Below are positions 7,881-60,421 of a DNA stretch of 64,000 nucleotides, in pieces; the stretch's first letter is position 1, and each line of letters begins with the position of its first letter. A program made the translations under genes and the position numbers. The notes under the pieces are model-generated. The model worked only from the letters and a program-made list of their open reading frames with translations. It did no database searches and was not told the origin of the DNA. Source of the stretch: Saitoella complicata NRRL Y-17804 (taxonomy: Eukaryota; Ascomycota; Saitoellomycetes; Saitoellales; Saitoellaceae); NCBI RefSeq assembly GCF_001661265.1, contig NW_017566992.1:713514-777513 (forward strand), written 5' to 3'.

Positions 7881-8346
7881 CGTTACCTGCCCTTCACAGA
7901 TCCTGCTAAATAATCAACGTTGATTAATAAAGTGACGTCGCTTTTAGTACTGGAGAATCAGCAGCTGTCAAGACATCGTCAGCATCGCACGGCTAGAGAC
8001 GCGAAGCAGAAGGAGATGTCTTTACCCTTGAGTTGGTCTGACTTGAAGATTGTCAGAATAAATCGGAGATGGATGTCACTTTTTGCGGGGAACGCAAGAC
8101 GTCTGGGACCCTGCACCCGCTTGCAGTGAGGTGGTTCCGAGAGGCCTAGGCCGAATTAGCCGGCGTCGATGTCAAAGGTATGGTAATGTAATTGTCAACC
8201 TAGATAGTGGTTTGCGATTCTGCCATTGATTCTGGTCCCGACATCTCTCTTTACAGTACAATTGGTATCGTCGTAGTATTTCTCACGGTTCACGTTATCT
8301 GCTGTCGGAGATAACTTTAGAACGCTATGAGTTCGTCGTTTTGATA
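7881..8346. other. Interval between oxidoreductase and DNA methyltransferase
   Basis: About 466 bp upstream of the oxidoreductase and downstream of the methyltransferase, both on the minus strand. It contains the oxidoreductase promoter. No coding signal or clear factor site is visible. Confidence 0.35.
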
Positions 8347-30156: not shown

Positions 30157-32814
30157 TCAAAGCTTAAGCAAGTTCGGGTTGAGAATAATTGGTACCAAGA
30201 TGTGACCCATGACCGACAATGCCAATGGGAACCACGAGTTAATCTGCGGGATCTGCCATTGATATGGTGCATAACACCCAAGGTAGATCATCATGGGAAT
30301 TTGTAATCCGAAGTAGATGTAAAGGAACGTGTGACTCTTGGCAATCTTCTTCAATTCCTTGAAGAGATTAGAATCCTCGACTTCCTTGGCCGTTGCACCC
30401 CACTGCATGTTGTATTCAAACATATGGCTGAGAAGAGCCCGGGAGATGTGGAATGAGATACCGTTGAAGTAGATGAACAAGAACGGAGTCCATCCCAACG
30501 CCGCAACGAAACAAGTGATAATACCAGTATCGCTACCACGGTACCGACCAATAGCAGCTCCGAGTGATCCGACAACACCAAAGACAACCATGATACCGAA
30601 CATCAAATCGAAGTTCTGCTGGTAGACGTGATCGATGATGTTGTGGAACCAACCCGTAAGGAAGTAGTTGACCGTGACGAAGATCCACGATCCACCCAAG
30701 GCATAGTACGTTCCGATGTATCCAAGTAAGGTAACCTTTCCAAATAACGGAATCTGAGGAGCCCAGATGAAACGTCTAAAGAGGGGTGTGAAGGGGCCCT
30801 TATAGACCCATTGACGAAGAGGATGGAAGAGCAATTCGGAACAGCCGTACGCGTATTTTTCCCAGCGCGTGATCTCGTCGTGAACGGTCAATGAGACACC
30901 TTCCTTGAAGTCACCATTGGTGTAGGCAGCCAAACGAACAGAGTATCCAGCGCACTGGAGCTTGAGGGCCATCTCGAAATCTTCGGAAACATGGGATTCA
31001 GACCACCACCTCGGTGTACCATCCTCGTGGATGTACCTAGCAGCCCTCTGAACAGCAGACCAGCGAAGGAAAGCGTTGTGGCCAACGAAGGGAGCAACAT
31101 CACCAGCGGCACAAGCGTACTGGATCGCACGGTAGATAACATCGGTGAAGTACGTCATACCCTTCTCGAAAAAGTTGCCATCGACTTCCATAACACCAGA
31201 AGCATGTTGGAGAACGGCAAGGTGATCCGTCTGAGCGAACTCCGAGGCAGCGTCGATCAAACAATCGTTGGGAACACGGGTGTCGGAGTCGATAATCAGA
31301 AAAAATTCTCCAATACGGATGTTCCCTTCAGCCCAGAGTCTCCCATCAGCCTGAAGGAGGTCTTCGAGAATATTGTTGTAAGCACGTTCTTCATCGGCCA
31401 AGGACCATCCCTCCGGACGCTCGACACCACGAAGAGCCTCCTCAACCCTCACGGACAACCCCATCATCGCATTCATGTTCGAGGCCTTCTTGAAACGTCC
31501 AGCACGGATATACCCGTCAACACCATGTCCAGGACGAGCGACCCAGCCGATATTGTGTCTTCGATAGTACTCCTTCCTAAACTCTTGGGATTCGGTCGAG
31601 ATGAGCTGCATTCTGTCGTCACAGAGGATAAGGTTGACGACCCCTCCCTGGCGTTCATACCGATGCATAGCAGCCTTGACAGAAGTAACAGTAGGGTCAA
31701 TAACCTTGTTGAGGGACTCCTTGTAAACCGGGCAGATAACCGTCATAGGAGGAAGAGCGCCCATAATTCTCTTGGGAGGAATCGCGGAGTACGCAAAAGA
31801 GTTCCTGAAGACCTGCTTGAAGGGACCGATAATACTGCCAACGGAGGACACCACGGTCATGTTGAAGTACAAGAACATCAAGATAGCGATAGGGAAATAA
31901 GCGACGTAGGCGAAGCGAATCACAGTACCATCGTAGCGGTACTCGATCAAGAGACTGCGGAGAAGGAGACCAAAGTAGATACCACCAAGAGCGATGACGA
32001 ACATGACATAGATAGGGATTTGAATCTCCCTGCGACGAAGAGGAACACGCCCATCCTCGTCGGCCTCCAAATCGGCAGCTTCAGCGGCGGTCTTAGCCAT
32101 CACCGACTTCTTCTTCTTCTTGAGGAACCCAAAGCGTCCTTCCTTCTTCTCCTCAATGACTTCAAGCTCACCAGGTTTTGCGGCCTGATCCCAACTGATT
32201 TGTTCGAACGCGGCCTGGACCGTCTTCGCCAACGTCAAAGCCGTCCCCGCTTCTTGGGACCAAACAACCATGATACCCTCCTCGCGAAAGAACGCAGTAG
32301 GCTGATCCAACCTCGCCCTACGAAGCTGAGACAAGTTGTCGAAGACCTGAAGTGTTTGTCCTTCCTCGAGAAGATTGGTTTTCAGGATGTTGAGAGGGAC
32401 GTTCGGGATGAGCGGATGATCGATGAAGATAACCAACTCCATGTCGAGAGCGGAGGCGTACGTGTGCAAATCCTCCGTCGGGATCATCTCGCCGATGTTG
32501 TCATTACAAATGACATACTCCGTATCCTCACGAATACAAACAGCCGAACGACCATAGAACCCCGTACGTCCAAACACACCACGATCCGCGCATTGCTCAA
32601 ACAACAACCGCGAAGACTTGCCAACAAGGTCGACATTGGCAGTGCTTTCGCCTGCCGTCTTCTCGTCGAGGAAGGAAGAGTAGATGGCGTTCATTTTGAG
32701 GTTCGCCTTAAAGATGTCTTGGGTGTCATTGACGATTTTGCCGTCATCGTTGATGTAGGTGACAACACCGGGACCCTGCTGGGGTTGTTGATGGCGAGAG
32801 GTCAGATTACCCAT
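30157..32814 (-). CDS. Membrane family-2 glycosyltransferase (fungal GT2)
   Basis: Intronless, 885 residues. A soluble N-terminal 270 residues is followed by two spans (about 275-345) and then a processive-type GT2 domain. Its landmarks are MTVICPVYKESL, ILCDDRMQL, IIDSDTRVP near 510 (DXD) and SEDFEMALKLQ near 610. Next comes EITRWEKYAYG near 648, where the usual QxxRW is ExxRW. A cluster of C-terminal spans (about 690-880) includes MFEYNMQWGATAKEVED. The family is conserved across filamentous fungi. It is related to chitin/hyaluronan-type synthases but lacks the chitin synthase QRRRW block, so I do not call it a chitin synthase. Product unknown; a plasma-membrane polysaccharide synthase is the likely role. 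C-ending codons suggest high expression. Confidence 0.85.
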   Translation of the reverse strand: MGNLTSRHQQPQQGPGVVTYINDDGKIVNDTQDIFKANLKMNAIYSSFLDEKTAGESTANVDLVGKSSRLLFEQCADRGVFGRTGFYGRSAVCIREDTEYVICNDNIGEMIPTEDLHTYASALDMELVIFIDHPLIPNVPLNILKTNLLEEGQTLQVFDNLSQLRRARLDQPTAFFREEGIMVVWSQEAGTALTLAKTVQAAFEQISWDQAAKPGELEVIEEKKEGRFGFLKKKKKSVMAKTAAEAADLEADEDGRVPLRRREIQIPIYVMFVIALGGIYFGLLLRSLLIEYRYDGTVIRFAYVAYFPIAILMFLYFNMTVVSSVGSIIGPFKQVFRNSFAYSAIPPKRIMGALPPMTVICPVYKESLNKVIDPTVTSVKAAMHRYERQGGVVNLILCDDRMQLISTESQEFRKEYYRRHNIGWVARPGHGVDGYIRAGRFKKASNMNAMMGLSVRVEEALRGVERPEGWSLADEERAYNNILEDLLQADGRLWAEGNIRIGEFFLIIDSDTRVPNDCLIDAASEFAQTDHLAVLQHASGVMEVDGNFFEKGMTYFTDVIYRAIQYACAAGDVAPFVGHNAFLRWSAVQRAARYIHEDGTPRWWSESHVSEDFEMALKLQCAGYSVRLAAYTNGDFKEGVSLTVHDEITRWEKYAYGCSELLFHPLRQWVYKGPFTPLFRRFIWAPQIPLFGKVTLLGYIGTYYALGGSWIFVTVNYFLTGWFHNIIDHVYQQNFDLMFGIMVVFGVVGSLGAAIGRYRGSDTGIITCFVAALGWTPFLFIYFNGISFHISRALLSHMFEYNMQWGATAKEVEDSNLFKELKKIAKSHTFLYIYFGLQIPMMIYLGCYAPYQWQIPQINSWFPLALSVMGHILVPIILNPNLLKL

Positions 32815-34941
32815 TGTCGAGTTGCTTGTCGAGGTGAGCGAGTGGTGATCAGGTTGATGATAATAGGAACTTGGAACGTGGGATGGTCCTCGATCTTATA
32901 CCCGACGACAACAACAAGCAACCCACCAACAACCCGGAAACCTCTTAAATGTCATCCTTGATCCCTTTTGGGCTCTGCGTCTGTGCGTCCCAGAACGCAA
33001 TCTATGCTCTCCAGTCCCCAACCTCAACCGTTTTGCCGACATCGGTCAGCTCGTGCCTCCATGCTTTGCCCGTGAAGCCAAGCATCAGTTTCCCCGTCGC
33101 AATCTAACATCGCCCGTAAAAGTCATCATAGGCAAGTCGATCACACCTCTCATATCGCAATCTAACATTGCCTTAAGTTGCGACTTGATGAATAGAGTGC
33201 TGAACACCGAGCCGTCGTAAAGTCAGCGTAGCGCTGTCGTGATCCACAACACCATTGTTTGCAAGGCCTCAAACCTGCCATAGAGTGGTTGAGCCCGTAA
33301 ATTTCTCTGCCAGCAGCAGCTTAGTGGGTGGACAGAGTACTGTTTGGCTACCCAGTCAGTTTCGGGACGGGCGGGGCTCTCTGGTCTTTAGGACCTTGAG
33401 GTAGAGTATTGGGCTGGTGAGTGTCGTTAGCGTGCGCAGAGGAGGTATGCTCAAGCACCGCCGTTCACGACTCCCGAAACCTAATGCTTGATCCCTTATT
33501 TTGGTGCGCGGGAACACACATCGGGCGATAAGCGGCGCAATGTCCTGACGCCGACCACCATGGCATCCCCAACGGCGCGGAGTTTGTAACATTCACCGTG
33601 ATCCACACCCGAGTGAACCGTGCACAGACGTGATCCGCCAATGAATGCCCCAAGCAATGCCAAGCCATGATTCGTCTTCATGAGGTGTTTGTTTCTCTCT
33701 CTCGTAGCACAGTTTCCGTGCACAAATCGTGGGCCTGACATATTGCGACAGGCCTCATCGATCCTCCACCAACCTCTTCTCGCTTCGGGATGTTGCGGAA
33801 GTAACCGCCAATCGATCTATCTCGCCAAGAGATTTTAAGACTTTTCCCTGTGTGCATTGATCATGCCATCCTCCAAAGATCCCTCGCGAGCTCTGTCTCA
33901 TCACCCTGACGGACACTGCTTGCTCAGCGGGGCCCCGAGCTCGCACAGAATTGCCGTATCGAAAAAAGACCCCCAAGCCTTCCACCAAATCCGATGCAAA
34001 TGCCGACCCGTGTTTGCCTGAAATACACGCCATGCGCCGGTCAACACTCCGCTTCCGAGTGATCGCGGTTTTTCGCCTTTGTTTCGACGTTGAAGTGAGG
34101 ATATGTACAGTGTGCACGGATCCCGTTGTCAGGTGCAGATCAGCGATCCGATCGTGGACCCACAGCTAAAATGACATCGTTGAGAAAGTTGACGTTGGCA
34201 TCCAAGGGGGTTATACAGCATTGCTTCCCATTGATCCGTAGCTAAGGGCCATTTCACACGCCTTGATGTTTTCTTGACGTTTTGCAGCATCGCGCATCTC
34301 AGCGCACACCCAGACTTCGCTTGAGCTCGAGCGCGGCTGCACCGCACATCCATCAGATCCCCGTCAATGACTGTACATCTGGCTTATCTCCGAGTTCCGA
34401 CCCGTGTCTCATCAGATTATCAAATCACATTTTATTTCACAGAAGAGGTTCGAGCTCCAATGTTTTCTAATTGAATCGAGGCGTGAAACTATGGTCACCT
34501 CAGCCGATATCGAAATCCGCGCGCACCGCCGCTGTCAACCCTCTTAAAGGCTCTCAAACGAGGTGAAGGGTCTATATTGAATATAGCGTATGTTATCGGA
34601 CGGAAAAAGTGGATTAGACGACTAAGATGTTGAGATCGACCTGTAGTGTTGGTACTATGCATATGTTTCAGTTGAACTTCCGGCAGATCGAGTTTTGACC
34701 ACCGTGGGAGTCTGATCCCCCTCCGAGGTTGTGGTTGGGGAGACAACAAACACGGCCCGAGAACGGCTCTCTCGTCGTCGCCGAATAGAGTCGTTTGAGT
34801 TTTAAGGGATGGATCTCGGGAATACTCTGCCTTGTTGGGACACTTAAACTCTCCGTTTAAGGAATCCCGGGAGTCTTTATCAAGGCACCCATTCCCACTT
34901 CCTCTCTCTTCTCCATCAGCTCACTCGCCTCCACCTTCGCT
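32815..34941. promoter_or_regulatory. Long divergent interval between GT2 and GH16 genes
   Basis: At 2.1 kb this is the largest gene-free stretch. Both flanking wall genes have their promoters here. Open frames are short, mostly without ATG and without family resemblance. A 14-bp direct repeat (TCGCAATCTAACAT) lies at 33097-33110 and 33155-33168. I saw no RNA gene. A long promoter fits a developmentally controlled wall gene, but that is inference. Confidence 0.35.
33097..33168. repeat. 14-bp direct repeat in the GT2/GH16 interval
   Basis: TCGCAATCTAACAT occurs twice, 58 bp apart start to start. Each copy is followed by YGCC. It could be a paired factor site upstream of the GT2 gene, or chance. 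Confidence 0.4.
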
Positions 34942-43975: not shown

Positions 43976-44258
43976 CTTGTTGTTTTATGAGTTGTCTGAT
44001 GCTGATCTCGAGCGATGCGCTGGTCGTTAGCCAGGTGTAGCGCACGTGATCGGGTGTCTACGTTACAAGGGCCCGAGCGCGGCGTGCAAAGTGGTAAGTA
44101 CGTCAAACTCATGAGTTGATGACCCGTCCGTCGAGTTCCGTCAACGATACGCCTTTGTACCGAATGTTGGGTCCCATTATAAACTGTCGTCTGCTTTACT
44201 GACAGATCGTCTCCGCGTCTACATCTTATTGCCTGTTTGGGCGACGAATGACCCCGGG
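43976..44258. promoter_or_regulatory. Divergent promoter of EGD2 and the transporter fusion, with CACGTG
   Basis: This interval lies between the predicted EGD2 leader and the leader of the transporter-glycosyltransferase gene. It contains GCACGTGATC, with the E-box CACGTG at 44043-44048, a Cbf1-type site. Binding is inferred only. Confidence 0.35.
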
Positions 44259-44408
44259 ATGGCTACCGACAGTGGACCTGCGCAATACGCTCATACAAAG
44301 GGCATATACGATGAACTCATGCCCGAAGAATCCCTCCAAAGCGCTGCTACCATACCCAGAACGTCAGCCCAGGCGACAACCTTTGATCCCAGAACCAGCC
44401 GGGACTGA
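44259..44408 (+). CDS. Upstream open reading frame or unjoined first exon (49 codons)
   Basis: ATG-started frame of 49 residues (MATDSGPAQYAHTKG ... DPRTSRD) whose stop lies 41 bases before the ATG of the transporter-glycosyltransferase gene. Its composition is protein-like. A splice joining it to the main frame would need an intron of about 28 nt, shorter than any here, so I treat it as a possible regulatory upstream frame. The transporter part lacks the usual cytosolic N-terminal tail, which keeps the alternative of a first exon open. Confidence 0.3.
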   Translation: MATDSGPAQYAHTKGIYDELMPEESLQSAATIPRTSAQATTFDPRTSRD

Positions 44409-44449
44409 GTGCGTGGGAAATCCGCTCGGTCGGTAGACATTCGCCTGTC

Positions 44450-46606
44450 ATGTCGCTCCTTGGAACTTATATCATCTCCGAGACAGTCAGAGCAACTTTG
44501 TCTCATGCCGTCAGCAGTGCGTCTGGCACGCACCTCTCTCCAGCACACTTCACTCTCGCCTCCGAAGTGCTCAAGCTTTGCGTTGCGTCAGCTGTTTCCC
44601 GTTCTGGCACTCACAAGTCACATACAAATCATACAAATGGACTATGGAGAGGGTATTGGGTGTACGCAGTACCAGCAGCGTTGTATTACGCCAACAATCT
44701 GATGTACCTCTGGGGCATGAGGGTCAGCGCACCATCTGTGCTGCACGTCAGCATGCTGGCCAAACTGCCTGTTACGGGAGTTCTGCACCACGTTCTTGTT
44801 CGACGTGAGAATAGGCCCGGTGTCTGGGGTGCGCTGTTGACGATCTGTGCTGGACTGTATTTGTTCAACTCTGCCCCAGGAGCAGGAGCAGGAGCGAGTA
44901 GCGAGGGTGGAGCAGGAGGGTTTGCAAACGGTGCCATGCTTGGTACGGCGATTGCGGTTGTCTCGGCCACCACTGGGATTTATACGGAGCTGGTCATTAC
45001 ACATGATGCTGTACCTTTTTGGACGGCGCAAGTGTTGTTGTACGCCTTCTCATCAGCGATCGCGCTGTGCACCGTTCTCACGACTTCGGCTTCACTGTTA
45101 CCCTCCGTAAGCGGTTTGGATGGAGTACTGGTCTTGGTCACTGTGTTGACGGGATTGATCGTGGCAGAGATATTGAGGCAGAGAGACACGCTTGTCAAGC
45201 TTGTCGGCACAGCAGCTACGGTACTTACTATTGCGCTTGTCCAGTGCATTCTCTTCCCGGAGTTACGCCCTTCAACCTTCACACAACGAGGCATTCTGGG
45301 AGCTGGCGTTGTGGCAATTGGCATTTGGGTATGGAATGCATGGAAGGTTGAGGGGCAGGAGGTGGATGACCATGACGACGAACGCGGCAAGGAGGGGAGG
45401 CACATCCCCGGGAAACCGGTGAAACAGGGATCGGGGCAGCCCACTGCTAAGAAGTTGGCCGTGGCAGCTACGGCCGTACTTGTTCTTTCTGCCTTCGCTC
45501 CCTCCGACCCAGCACGGTCTTATAGAGCAAGCCCATCGACATACGACAGGGACATGGAGACATACTTCCGCCCACGCGGACTCGTTCCCTCAGCATGGGG
45601 CACCGATCCAGCACCGTACACCTGCGTCCACGACCTCGTCACGCGATACGATCTGAACGCAGACTCTGTGCCTAAAGCCCTGGCGCATCCCTCTCAAGCA
45701 TGTCCATTGTATCCTATTCCGGACGGCGGCTTGATTTTCCACGCATACTGGGCCGGTCCCTGGCGTCCTTTCCACGAAGTCATGATCGACTCATTCCTCG
45801 CAACACAGAGACTTGGCGACGGACACAAGATGGTTTACTGGTATGTTGGTCCTGGTCCGAGTGAGAACACTAGGCTGAAGTACGCGGGGGGAGTTGGAAA
45901 GGGTTACGTTGAGTTCAGGGAGTTTGCCGCGGAGAATGAGGCGACGGGTACGTGTCTTGAACAAATGTCAGAGTGGAGGGATGTGAAGTATCGAGAGGAG
46001 GTGAAAATGCCCGTTGAGTCATATTCGGATCTCGTGAGAACGCTGTTGCTGGCGAAGTATGGCGGTGTATGGGTGGATTCGGACACATTGCTGCTGCACG
46101 ACTTGACACCTCTCATTCGGACCGGGGCCAATGCACCAAGACTGGGATTGAACAAGTGGAACAATAATCTGCTTGTCTACGGGCCTCCGGACGCCGGTAT
46201 AGGGCAGAAAGTTCTCGAGGTTAGCTGCAGCCTTTCATTCAACGAGTCCAACTGGCAGTACTCCGATAGTCTGAAGCCTGAGAGGTGGTACTGGTTGTAC
46301 AACGATGGTGCACTCCGCGTTTGCCTCGAGCATGAGAATTGCGGAATCTCCGGCCACCCCGCATTTCTCCAGGGCGGGACTCGGACAGTCGAGCCTTGCG
46401 AAAAGGGTTTGGATCCGAGACGCTCAGCGTTTCCATACTCGTTAAGGGGTTTGTGGACGTGGCATGCGAGGTTGAACTCCAGGGATGATGAATGTATAAG
46501 ACCTGAAGCTCAAAATGCGGTGATGAGCTTGGTGAGGAGGATCGAGGATATGCTGAAGGATGGCATTGATCATCAAGGACGGAGCATTATCCGAGGTTAT
46601 GAATGA
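44450..46606 (+). CDS. Fusion of nucleotide-sugar transporter (SLC35A-like) and DXD glycosyltransferase
   Basis: One uninterrupted frame of 718 residues. Residues 1-300 are a nucleotide-sugar transporter: a series of about ten spans with STAV-like LASEVLKL near 40, YAVPAALYYANNLMYLWGM, VLHVSMLAKLPVTGVLH and WGALLTICAGLYL, all SLC35A landmarks. A polar linker (305-333) leads to one more span, KKLAVAATAVLVLSAFA (334-350). Residues about 370-718 form a Golgi-type glycosyltransferase of the GT32 / Gly_transf_sug kind, with DLVRTLLLAKYGGVWVDSDTLLL (DXD near 542-544), LGLNKWNNNLLVYGPPD and several Cys. If the transporter ends in the cytosol, the extra span puts the catalytic domain in the lumen, where the imported sugar is released. 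Substrate unknown. Confidence 0.82.
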   Translation: MSLLGTYIISETVRATLSHAVSSASGTHLSPAHFTLASEVLKLCVASAVSRSGTHKSHTNHTNGLWRGYWVYAVPAALYYANNLMYLWGMRVSAPSVLHVSMLAKLPVTGVLHHVLVRRENRPGVWGALLTICAGLYLFNSAPGAGAGASSEGGAGGFANGAMLGTAIAVVSATTGIYTELVITHDAVPFWTAQVLLYAFSSAIALCTVLTTSASLLPSVSGLDGVLVLVTVLTGLIVAEILRQRDTLVKLVGTAATVLTIALVQCILFPELRPSTFTQRGILGAGVVAIGIWVWNAWKVEGQEVDDHDDERGKEGRHIPGKPVKQGSGQPTAKKLAVAATAVLVLSAFAPSDPARSYRASPSTYDRDMETYFRPRGLVPSAWGTDPAPYTCVHDLVTRYDLNADSVPKALAHPSQACPLYPIPDGGLIFHAYWAGPWRPFHEVMIDSFLATQRLGDGHKMVYWYVGPGPSENTRLKYAGGVGKGYVEFREFAAENEATGTCLEQMSEWRDVKYREEVKMPVESYSDLVRTLLLAKYGGVWVDSDTLLLHDLTPLIRTGANAPRLGLNKWNNNLLVYGPPDAGIGQKVLEVSCSLSFNESNWQYSDSLKPERWYWLYNDGALRVCLEHENCGISGHPAFLQGGTRTVEPCEKGLDPRRSAFPYSLRGLWTWHARLNSRDDECIRPEAQNAVMSLVRRIEDMLKDGIDHQGRSIIRGYE

Positions 46607-46902
46607 GAATATGAATAGACATACGTTATAATTAGCTTTGCACAGGAACTGAAGGTAGATCACCCACTGAACACGTAGTTGCCTTACTACTGCTAATCCA
46701 AAAACAAAAGACGTCAAAAGACAGAAGCCTCGCTCATGCATCTCATAGAAGAAACCAAAAGAGCTCGGTCCTTGATTACCCCGCGAACGAAGATCAAGAA
46801 TAAGAAAGGAGCGGTAAACAACCAAAAAGAAATCGATATCAAGAAAGCACGCACTAAATCTCACATCCCCTCATGATCACTTCCAAAAATCCCACCAACC
46901 GA
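46607..46902. other. Convergent intergenic stretch
   Basis: About 300 A-rich bases between the 3' ends of the fusion gene and the Cys-rich protein gene. No gene is supported. Confidence 0.4.
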
Positions 46903-47724
46903 TTACCAGCCCTTCTTGGGGGCGGGGGTCTCGTCGCAGCAGTCCTCAGTGATTGTGACAGTGCACTTCTCCGTGGTCGTGCAGACAGACGTAACGGGCT
47001 TGTACTCGGTGGTGATGCAAGTCTCAGTGACGGTCTCAGTGCAGGCAGGCTCAGTGTAGTAGCAGTACTCGGTAGTCGTGTAGGGGACGCTGCAGGTCTC
47101 GTAGACGGTGCACATAGAGGTGTACTCATCGTACTTGGTCTCGTAACAGGTCTCGTAGCAAGTCTCCGTAGTGTAGCAGGGCTCGTAGTCGGTGACGGTG
47201 CAGGTCTCGTAACAAGTGGTGCCATCAGCGGTGTAATAATCGGTGTAGGTCTCGGTGCAGTATTCGGTTGTCTCACAAGTAGAGGTTTCGTAGCAAGTTG
47301 ACCAGACCGTAGAGGCATCGCAAGAGTAGGAGCAAGGGTAGACAGTGGAGCTAGAGCTGCAGGATTCCGTGTCGTCGTACCAGTAGGACAAATAAGGAGT
47401 CTTGCAGACCTCCGTGGTAGACGTATCGGTGCAGGTCGCGGTCTCGTAGCAAGTCTCCGTCGTGGTGTCGTAACAAGTAGAATAGAGGGTCTTGTAGTCA
47501 TATTCGGTGCAGGTCACGTCCTCGTAACAGGTGCTGTAGACGCACTCGGTGTAGTAGCAGGTGACGTAGATCTCGGTCTCCTTGGTCACAGTGGTCGGTT
47601 CACAGCATTCTTCAGTGGTGGTGGTGGTGCATTCGTCGTCCTTGGGGTAAGAGTAACCACCGGGAGCGGCGAAGACAATGTTGGAGGCGGCGAGAAGAGA
47701 AGCAAGGATGGCGACGTACTTCAT
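46903..47724 (-). CDS. Secreted Cys/Tyr/Thr-rich repetitive protein
   Basis: 273 residues, no introns. Residues 1-20 are a signal peptide (MKYVAILASLLAASNIVFAA). The rest is built from irregular short units of the type TCYETxTC, TEYC and CTETVTETC. There are about 31 Cys, many Thr, Tyr and Glu, and little else until the end APKKGW. Cysteines are mostly five to eight residues apart. The protein could be heavily disulphide-bonded or tyrosine cross-linked and O-mannosylated, as in wall or surface proteins. No GPI-type hydrophobic tail is visible. I recognise no family. C-ending codons (many TAC, ACC, TGC) suggest strong expression. Confidence 0.78.
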   Translation of the reverse strand: MKYVAILASLLAASNIVFAAPGGYSYPKDDECTTTTTEECCEPTTVTKETEIYVTCYYTECVYSTCYEDVTCTEYDYKTLYSTCYDTTTETCYETATCTDTSTTEVCKTPYLSYWYDDTESCSSSSTVYPCSYSCDASTVWSTCYETSTCETTEYCTETYTDYYTADGTTCYETCTVTDYEPCYTTETCYETCYETKYDEYTSMCTVYETCSVPYTTTEYCYYTEPACTETVTETCITTEYKPVTSVCTTTEKCTVTITEDCCDETPAPKKGW

Positions 47725-50583: not shown

Positions 50584-52362
<1,779 letters not shown>

Positions 52363-53472
52363 ATGTTCAGGTCCAGTGTCCTCCGATCCTTGCGCAACGT
52401 CGCTCCCTCAACCAGGGCCTTCTCCACCTCCGCCGTCGCCGAGGCCGAGAAGAAGATCGCCTTGATCGGTGCCCGCGGTTACACCGGCCAAGCCCTCATC
52501 TCCCTCGTCAATGCCCACCCCTCTCTCGTCATCTCCCACGTCTCCTCCCGTGAACTCGCCGGAAAGCCTTTGGATGGCTACTCCAAAGCCCAGATCACCT
52601 ACTCCAACCTCTCCCCCGAGGACATCAAGAACATGGAAGCGGAGGGTGAGGTCGATGCGTGGGTTATGGCACTTCCTAACGGTGTCTGCAAGCCTATGGT
52701 TGAGTCTGTTTTGGCGGGTGCCAAGAAGGCCGGAAAGAAGAACTCTGTTGTGGTTGATTTGAGTGCCGATTACCGATTCGACGAACCCCGTGACACCAAC
52801 TGGATCTACGGTCTCCCCGAACTCAACGACCGCTCAAAGATCTCACAAGCGACCCTCATCTCCAACCCAGGATGTTACGCAACAGGCGCCCAGCTCGCAT
52901 TGGCACCACTAATCCCTCACCTCTCCTCCCCACCCACGGTCTTCGGTGTCTCCGGATACTCTGGAGCAGGAACTAAACCATCCCCGAAAAACGACACCAC
53001 CAACCTTCAGGACAATTTAATCCCATACTCCCTCACCGACCACATCCACGAACGCGAAATCTCCCACCGTCTAGGCTCGAAAGTCGCGTTCATCCCTCAC
53101 GTCGGACAATGGTTCCAGGGTATCTCGCTCACGGTCTCGATCCCCCTCGCTAAGACCATGACCTCCCGCGAGATCAGGAACCTCTACACCGAATTCTACG
53201 CCTCCGAGAAACTCGTCGAAATCATCGGCGAGGAACCTTCGGTCAAGGACATCGCCGGTCAACACGGTGTCAGGATTGGTGGATTCGGCGTTAACCAGGC
53301 TGGGGACCGCGTTGTTGTTGTTGCGACGATTGATAACTTGTTGAAGGGTGCTGCTACGCAGTGTTTGCAGAACTTGAATTTGGCGTTGGGTGTGGGAGAG
53401 TTTGATGGTATTCCGTTGATGGGGAGTGGGGAGAGGTTGATCGTTCCTGCTGTCAATGTTCATCAGAAGTAG
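52363..53472 (+). CDS. N-acetyl-gamma-glutamyl-phosphate reductase, separate gene
   Basis: 369 residues, no introns. Begins with its own mitochondrial presequence (MFRSSVLRSLRNVAPSTRAF, about 25 residues). Then come the NADP-binding start KIALIGARGYTGQALI, VSSRELAGKPLDGY, WVMALPNGVC, the catalytic Cys near 171 in SNPGCYATGAQLAL, GVSGYSGAGTKPSPKND, HRLGSKVAFIPHVGQWFQGI and the end LNLALGVGEFDGIPL. It reduces acetylglutamyl phosphate to the semialdehyde in mitochondria. In most fungi studied this enzyme is the C-terminal half of Arg5,6. Here it is a free gene, divergent from the kinase gene, and complete at both ends. Confidence 0.95.
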   Translation: MFRSSVLRSLRNVAPSTRAFSTSAVAEAEKKIALIGARGYTGQALISLVNAHPSLVISHVSSRELAGKPLDGYSKAQITYSNLSPEDIKNMEAEGEVDAWVMALPNGVCKPMVESVLAGAKKAGKKNSVVVDLSADYRFDEPRDTNWIYGLPELNDRSKISQATLISNPGCYATGAQLALAPLIPHLSSPPTVFGVSGYSGAGTKPSPKNDTTNLQDNLIPYSLTDHIHEREISHRLGSKVAFIPHVGQWFQGISLTVSIPLAKTMTSREIRNLYTEFYASEKLVEIIGEEPSVKDIAGQHGVRIGGFGVNQAGDRVVVVATIDNLLKGAATQCLQNLNLALGVGEFDGIPLMGSGERLIVPAVNVHQK

Positions 53473-59011: not shown

Positions 59012-60421
59012 ATGGCTCCTCTTGACCTCCTCGTACTCGGGATGAACTCCGGTACTGCCATGGATGGCATCGACATCGGCCTCTGCCGCTTCAAACAAGA
59101 AGCACCCGAGTCTCCTATGGAAATGGAGCTGATCCAATATGACGAACTCGAAGTCCCTCAGTGGATCAAGAAACCCATGCTCCGAATGCTTCGCGAAACC
59201 TCCACCACTCCCGCTGAGATGTCCCAGATCAACGTCCAACTCGGACAAATGTTTGCCGATGCCGCCAATGAATTCTGCCAGAAATACAACGTCCCCCGCG
59301 AAGCTGTCGACTTGATCGGGAGCCATGGTCAGACGATCTGGTTGTTAAGTATGCCGAAGGAGGGTGAGACCAAGAGTGCGTTGTGTATGGGGGAAGGAAC
59401 CGTTATGTCTGCCATGACTGGAATCACCACAGTCACGGATTTCCGTATGGCGGAACAAGCCGTCGGACGTCAAGGCGCTCCTCTCGTTGGTTTCTACGAC
59501 GGGCTTTTGCTCCGCCACCCGACCAAGTACATTGCATGCCAAAACATTGGTGGCATCGCAAACGTCTGCTTCATTCCCTCCGATGCCGACGGCTCCATCG
59601 ACACCATGACCGACTTTGACTGCGGCCCTGGCAACATTTTCATTGATGCCGCGGTGCGGTACTTTACAAACGGCGAACGCGAATATGACAAAGACGGAGA
59701 AATGGGTAAACGTGGTACTGTCTGCCAGGAGATTGTTGACAACTTCCTCCACAACCACCCTTACTGCACGCACGATCCTCCCAAGACGACCGGACGCGAA
59801 GTCTTCGGGGACGGTGACGCGCAAGCCATTATCGATGACTGCCTCGCTCGAGGTCTCTCACCCGATGATACCGTCGCTACCATTACTCGCATTACGGCCC
59901 AGAACATCGTCGAGCATTACCACCGCTATGCACCCGAGCGTGGTGCCGTTATCGACGAGATCCATATGTGCGGAGGCGGCTCACTCAACCCCAACGTCAC
60001 CGAATACATCCAATCCGCATTCCCACGCGCTCGAGTCCTCTCGCTCGATGAATCCGGTATCCCATCCGCGGCGAAGGAAGCTGTCACGTTCGCGATGCAA
60101 GGAATGGAAGCCATCCTCGGCCGTGCGCTTATCGTCCCGTGTAATGCGGAGACAACCGAGGGGAACACAATTTCTGGAAAGATCGCGCCTGGGAAGAGTT
60201 GGAGGACGTTGATTGGGAAGGCACACGCGTTTGGCGAGGGAAAGCCGTTGCCGAGGGTACGTGAGATGTTCTTGACGAGGAAGTACTTCATGAACCAGAA
60301 GCCAATTAACGGCCTTCCGGCTGACTTCAACTTCGAGAAGAGTGTGAACGGGACCAATGGGGTGAATGCACACGCGACGAACGGCGTCAATGGGTCCAAC
60401 GGTGTCAATGGACACCATTGA
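59012..60421 (+). CDS. AnmK / levoglucosan-kinase-like anhydrosugar kinase
   Basis: 469 residues, no introns. Begins with [20 protein letters not shown], the phosphate-binding motif of anhydro-N-acetylmuramic acid kinase. It continues with IGSHGQTIW, the [17 protein letters not shown] segment, [26 protein letters not shown], the [12 protein letters not shown] loop and [16 protein letters not shown], all family landmarks. Fungi make no peptidoglycan; the characterised yeast relative (Lipomyces starkeyi) is levoglucosan kinase, which hydrolyses and phosphorylates 1,6-anhydroglucose to glucose-6-phosphate. That is the best guess for activity. After residue 440 a tail of repeated NG(V/T)N units ends NGHH, absent from the family. 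Levoglucosan arises in burnt biomass. Confidence 0.88.

Follow-up and report, generated by a model that had tools for sequence, protein, structure and literature searches.

A predicted nucleotide-sugar transporter joined through an eleventh membrane span to a glycosyltransferase in the fungus Saitoella complicata

The window analysed here is a 64,000-nucleotide stretch of the 14.12-Mb genome of the yeast-like fungus Saitoella complicata NRRL Y-17804 (contig C1, 713514-777513), and the feature of interest is a single open reading frame (ORF) at 44450-46606 on the plus strand. This ORF begins with ATG, encodes a protein of 718 amino acids (P0001) and lies in a stop-to-stop frame of 44387-46606; given the base composition of the ORF itself, 718 codons would be free of stops with a probability of about 4.5e-14. 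The N-terminal half of the protein matches the Pfam family Nuc_sug_transp (PF04142, residues 33-295, 54.9 bits against a cut-off of 27), while two glycosyltransferase families match around a DXD motif in the C-terminal half, Gly_transf_sug (PF04488, residues 511-556, 27.3 bits against 23) and Caps_synth (PF05704, residues 515-552, 33.7 bits against 24.5). An earlier note on this DNA had described one intact 718-codon frame that joins an SLC35A-like transporter to a DXD glycosyltransferase through an extra membrane span. Indeed, the frame has exactly this extent and no internal stop, and both the Pfam matches and an AlphaFold model agree with the proposed joining.

The fusion, defined by the ORF, the Pfam matches and a counterpart in Saitoella coloradoensis, can be divided into five parts, all on the plus strand. 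The transporter half (residues 2-302, 44453-45355) has ten predicted membrane helices and is followed by a polar linker, predicted to be cytosolic (residues 303-332, 45356-45445), in which residues 309-318 have a predicted local distance difference test score (pLDDT) below 50 in AlphaFold. The eleventh span, found by both hydropathy and AlphaFold (residues 333-348, 45446-45493), carries K334 and K335 at its putative cytosolic end and leads into a short stem (residues 349-365, 45494-45544; AlphaFold pLDDT below 50 at 355-359). The glycosyltransferase half (residues 366-718, 45545-46603), assigned a GT-A fold from Pfam and AlphaFold, contains the DXD motif D543-S544-D545 (46076-46084) and the N-glycosylation sequon N598-E-S (46241-46249). 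We scanned 44000-46700 for introns of 45-220 bases with the consensus elements GTRNGN, CTRAY and YAG, and found none across the transporter/enzyme junction; the sole candidate, at 44662-44727, falls within conserved span 3. Directly 3' of the fusion gene lies a convergent frame of 273 codons, 46903-47724 (-), whose product has a signal-like start (judged by eye) and dense Cys/Thr/Tyr repeats, with no Pfam match.

The fused architecture is found in other fungi, as a search for the same domain order, suggested in the earlier note, confirmed. The S. coloradoensis protein (P0002, 716 amino acids) is 86% identical to P0001 over 100% of the length, and 78% identical over residues 301-358, the 58 residues that hold the linker and eleventh span. 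Homologues were retrieved with one whole-chain search and two half searches, each limited to 7,994-7,999 scored candidates, so that all counts are lower bounds. At least 50 different proteins were obtained, P0001 included: 27 with both halves, 19 with the transporter only and 4 with the enzyme only. The domain order is the same in all 27 fused records, with 48-125 residues between the halves. Besides Saitoella, the fused holders named among the matches listed are Sporobolomyces koalae, S. johnsonii and S. carnicolor; Sporobolomyces belongs to the Pucciniomycotina in the Basidiomycota (looked up for S. koalae), and S. complicata to the Taphrinomycotina, so the 27 of 50 fused records span Ascomycota and Basidiomycota. 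Many records are fragments, and only P0001, P0002, P0003, P0010, P0015 and P0025 have at least 295 aligned transporter residues together with at least 343 enzyme residues. When the S. complicata genome was searched with P0001 (E ≤0.01), just two loci matched: the P0001 gene and a second fused gene on contig C4 (L002), which is a single frame of 828 codons, 42% identical to P0001 in the alignment, and an exact match to the 827-residue P0003 recorded for this strain. About 1.2 kb upstream of this second gene, four TTAGGG units are followed by a short CCCTAA stretch (L002 3805-3782, minus strand), which resembles a head-to-head telomere-repeat scar.

The AlphaFold model of the full chain (pLDDT 85.7, predicted template modelling score (pTM) 0.71) places transporter helices at residues 2-23, 31-52, 65-92, 95-117 (broken at 103-104), 123-140, 156-185, 190-212, 222-243, 247-268 and 279-302, while a helix of 7 residues at 270-276 was excluded from the span count. 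These ten helices form the drug/metabolite transporter fold over the whole transporter half, the model matches solved transporters end to end, and structural alignments with solved nucleotide-sugar carriers cover all ten helices at 11-21% identity. Kyte-Doolittle hydropathy (19 residues, cut-off 1.3) detects the eleventh span but no more than six transporter segments in P0001. Because hydropathy alone gives fewer segments, the ten-span count rests on the AlphaFold model and on homology. The earlier note had proposed that the transporter crosses the membrane ten times and keeps both termini cytosolic, which the modelled helices and the match to solved structures uphold; it had also argued that fewer than ten spans would put the enzyme in the cytosol, and on this point hydropathy goes against the proposal and the model and homology go with it. 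The loops follow the positive-inside pattern, with 10 Lys and Arg residues in the five predicted cytosolic loops versus 1 in the five lumenal loops. In addition, the enzyme half has eight near-invariant cysteines, and the aligned column of N598 carries a sequon in 12 of the 21 covering rows. Because of this charge bias, the conserved cysteines and the common sequon, the catalytic half is placed in the lumen, as the note had expected of the eleventh span. The fold of both halves, the ten spans and the lumenal position of the catalytic half are thus well-supported predictions.

The residues expected to matter for function are largely retained in both halves. In the transporter half, where 41 of 49 family rows match PF04142 at E ≤0.01, the cavity lysines K42, K105 and K250 are conserved in 24 of 24, 26 of 29 and 42 of 44 covering rows, respectively. 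K42 and K105 occupy the columns of mCST Lys55 and Lys124, described as substrate-cavity lysines (eLife 45221). At the column of mCST Ser261, P0001 shares Ala with UDP-sugar carriers, and the donor is most likely a UDP-sugar. In the enzyme half, profile matches coincide with a DXD motif in which D543 is found in 26 and D545 in 29 of 30 covering rows, and the model gives a GT-A fold. The catalytic half appears GT32-like by Pfam match alone, and may use a retaining mechanism; in a comparison with a single PF04488 protein from S. complicata, only 25 columns around the DXD were aligned (probability 2.6%). Most members retain both the cavity lysines and the DXD, and both halves therefore look active.

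We consider it very probable that P0001 is a bifunctional membrane protein with two activities and a lumenal enzyme, a judgement that leaves aside any channelling of substrate. Residues ~1-300 would make up an SLC35A-type nucleotide-sugar transporter, complete with ten helices and cytosolic at both ends, and a cytosolic linker and signal-anchor-like eleventh span would then hold a GT-A glycosyltransferase on a short stem in the lumen. The protein would be located in the Golgi (or endoplasmic reticulum) membrane, the Golgi being the presumed site. The carrier would import its nucleotide sugar (a UDP-sugar being the likeliest donor) by exchange, and the tethered enzyme would transfer the sugar to a lumenal acceptor glycan close to the transporter exit. 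Such a tether would raise the local donor concentration and set a 1:1 stoichiometry, and proximity might lead the enzyme to prefer the donor that its own carrier brings in (channelling). As to origin, a transporter gene may have been joined once, long ago, to a complete type II glycosyltransferase gene, whose type II anchor would have become the eleventh span.

A number of observations weigh against this reading. Half of the 10 cytosolic Lys and Arg residues sit in the 30-residue linker together with 7 Asp and Glu residues, and without the linker the bias is 5 versus 1. The sequon is absent in 9 of the 21 rows, P0002 included; D543 is missing in 4 and D545 in 1 of the 30 rows (P0011 and P0029 are examples); and the donor-specificity residues are mixed, with Tyr and Gln at the columns of mCST Tyr214 and Asn210, respectively. 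No interface between the halves is modelled with confidence by AlphaFold (pTM 0.71, linker partly below pLDDT 50). Finally, 19 of the 50 retrieved records are transporter-only. One of these, P0030, is a 340-residue 'partial' record from S. complicata and a cut model of the fused P0003, of which it covers the transporter half; it omits about 21 residues, and the DNA continues in frame past its end. A GTAAGT stands near L002 1464 (minus strand), just after the second copy's transporter half, where P0030 ends, and a spliced short form of that copy is possible from the sequence. The transporter-only records other than P0030, with Xylariales and Pseudohyphozyma among their sources, may be true losses of the enzyme.

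These transporter-only records are a weak counter-argument to the fusion. Ten of the 19 (P0031-P0033, P0035, P0037-P0040, P0044 and P0049) end just after the eleventh hydrophobic segment, as would be expected with a following intron or with loss of the enzyme; the segment is not seen in the other 9, P0030 included. In a tree of the transporter half, 3 of 11 transporter-only rows (P0031, P0034 and P0036) fall inside supported groups with fused rows, and the other 8 make up three separate groups that branch from an unresolved node, an arrangement consistent with a single ancient fusion and later losses or cut gene models. Groups common to the trees of both halves include Sporobolomyces with P0029, P0001 with P0002, and P0008 with P0009, the last pair having P0003 nearby. 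Both trees were built quickly: 9 of 22 and 5 of 19 inner branches are open, and the outgroup branch is very long.

If a missing stop, a fault in the assembly or an overlooked intron had made two adjoining genes look like one, we might expect transporter-only records of the kind that stop just past the eleventh segment. However, the chain is 86% identical in a second species, 27 of 50 retrieved records are fused, and the frame lacks both a stop and an intron candidate across the junction; an artefact is thus extremely unlikely, and we conclude that the fusion frame is the product of neither chance nor artefact. The catalytic half could instead face the cytosol, given an odd count of spans in the transporter half or an eleventh segment that does not cross the membrane, as the six hydropathy segments of P0001 and an eleventh helix of only 16 residues might suggest. 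This too is very unlikely, if a little less so, as the ten modelled helices match solved ten-span structures end to end, the positive-inside bias persists with or without the linker, and the catalytic half keeps its cysteines and sequon. A further alternative is that the transporter half no longer transports and serves only to retain or localise what would be a multi-span glycosyltransferase. The low identity to solved carriers and the replacement of Asn by Gln at the mCST Asn210 position speak for such a module, but all ten helices are retained and K42, K105 and K250 are almost invariant, which would be needless in an anchor, and we regard it as improbable.

The alternative with the most weight shares with the bifunctional protein everything but the last step: the fusion would secure only co-expression and co-localisation, with the transporter feeding, and the enzyme drawing on, a common lumenal pool. 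We put this at somewhat short of an even chance, and the odds of the two readings overlap; the stem might also be cleaved after synthesis. The linker and stem, both partly below pLDDT 50, fit a common pool, the gap of 48-125 residues in all 27 fused records speaks against a rigid interface, and another donor carrier probably exists, since a stronger PF04142 match (242.8 bits for the main exon) is found on contig C10 of the same genome. The PF04142 profile also finds other, ordinary transporters in this genome. Against a common pool, the fixed order in both Ascomycota and Basidiomycota suggests that the tether itself is useful, and co-expression is presumably achieved in most cases without fusion. 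The earlier note had gone further and suggested direct substrate channelling. Its domain order, ten spans plus one and lumenal enzyme are borne out by the computations; channelling would be a conjecture, as the linker is modelled with low confidence and the range of gaps fits a loose tether equally well. Because the linker is flexible, the gap variable and a confident interface lacking, a rigid tunnel or hand-over is disfavoured, although a strict hand-over of donor between the halves is possible. We offer only tentatively the view that these proteins are an ancient transporter-enzyme class, patchily kept across Dikarya, in which the donor is taken directly at the lumenal gate of the enzyme's own transporter, import and transfer are coupled, and the nucleotide by-product goes back through that carrier, the imported donor hardly mixing with the lumenal pool.

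Each half of P0001 is of a known kind, and the new element is the joint architecture. The transporter half resembles the SLC35A carriers for CMP-sialic acid, UDP-Gal and UDP-GlcNAc (solved structures 6oh2-6oh4 and 6i1r) in its ten-helix drug/metabolite transporter superfamily fold, PF04142 match and cavity lysines, but in the solved carriers the polypeptide terminates on the cytosolic side of the tenth span, whereas P0001 would continue via the eleventh span into a lumenal enzyme. Similarly, the remainder resembles Golgi type II glycosyltransferases (PF04488, PF05704), with a cytosolic flank, one span, a stem and a lumenal GT-A domain with DXD; those enzymes have a single anchor, while the anchor of P0001 would be the last of eleven spans, of which the first ten form a transporter. 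A further related system is formed by non-covalent mammalian complexes that hold the same two kinds of partner together in the membrane: SLC35A2, SLC35A3 and SLC35A4 are reported in complex with MGATs, and SLC35A2 with UGT8, B4GalT1 and B4GalT4 (PMC9368800, PMC6453868). The mammalian partners are separate polypeptides, detected by Förster resonance energy transfer, bimolecular fluorescence complementation, proximity ligation assay and NanoBiT, in contrast to the one covalent chain kept in evolution in P0001. Section 4.7 of PMC9368800 states that very little is known of the biological significance of such complexes, and the reviewers describe their role as incompletely understood. In the literature searched, judged by titles and abstracts, we found no description of a natural transporter-glycosyltransferase fusion, in agreement with the earlier note, whose author knew of none; one match to 'single polypeptide' proved to be a reference on chitin synthase. 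Precomputed Pfam lists do contain this pairing of domains, and as far as our searches show, fused sequences sit in databases yet are undiscussed. Conserved as it is, the covalent fusion provides a natural experiment on the hand-over of donors from transporters to particular glycosyltransferases, and the chain could be expressed as one or two polypeptides, making the effect of the tether measurable. It would also show how a ten-span carrier with both ends cytosolic can deliver a lumenal enzyme by one added span, and it opens a new entry point to the cell-surface glycans of Taphrinomycotina and red yeasts.

Several other genes in the window deserve mention. An amino-acid kinase with a NAT domain, acetylglutamate kinase-like (50584-52116, minus strand), and a reductase with a semialdehyde-dehydrogenase fold (52363-53472, plus strand; a single match in the genome), which we take to be N-acetyl-gamma-glutamyl-phosphate reductase, occupy two separate genes that diverge from each other across 246 bases. 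Many fungi make the kinase and reductase as one ARG5,6 precursor. A homologue of anhydro-N-acetylmuramic acid kinase, a peptidoglycan-recycling enzyme in bacteria, is encoded in this fungus at 59012-60421 on the plus strand (PF03702, E 5.7e-74). Finally, a GT2 membrane glycosyltransferase with DUF7928 lies at 30157-32814 on the minus strand, and antisense to it is an open frame of 656 codons (30991-32961, plus strand), perhaps a by-product of codon bias.
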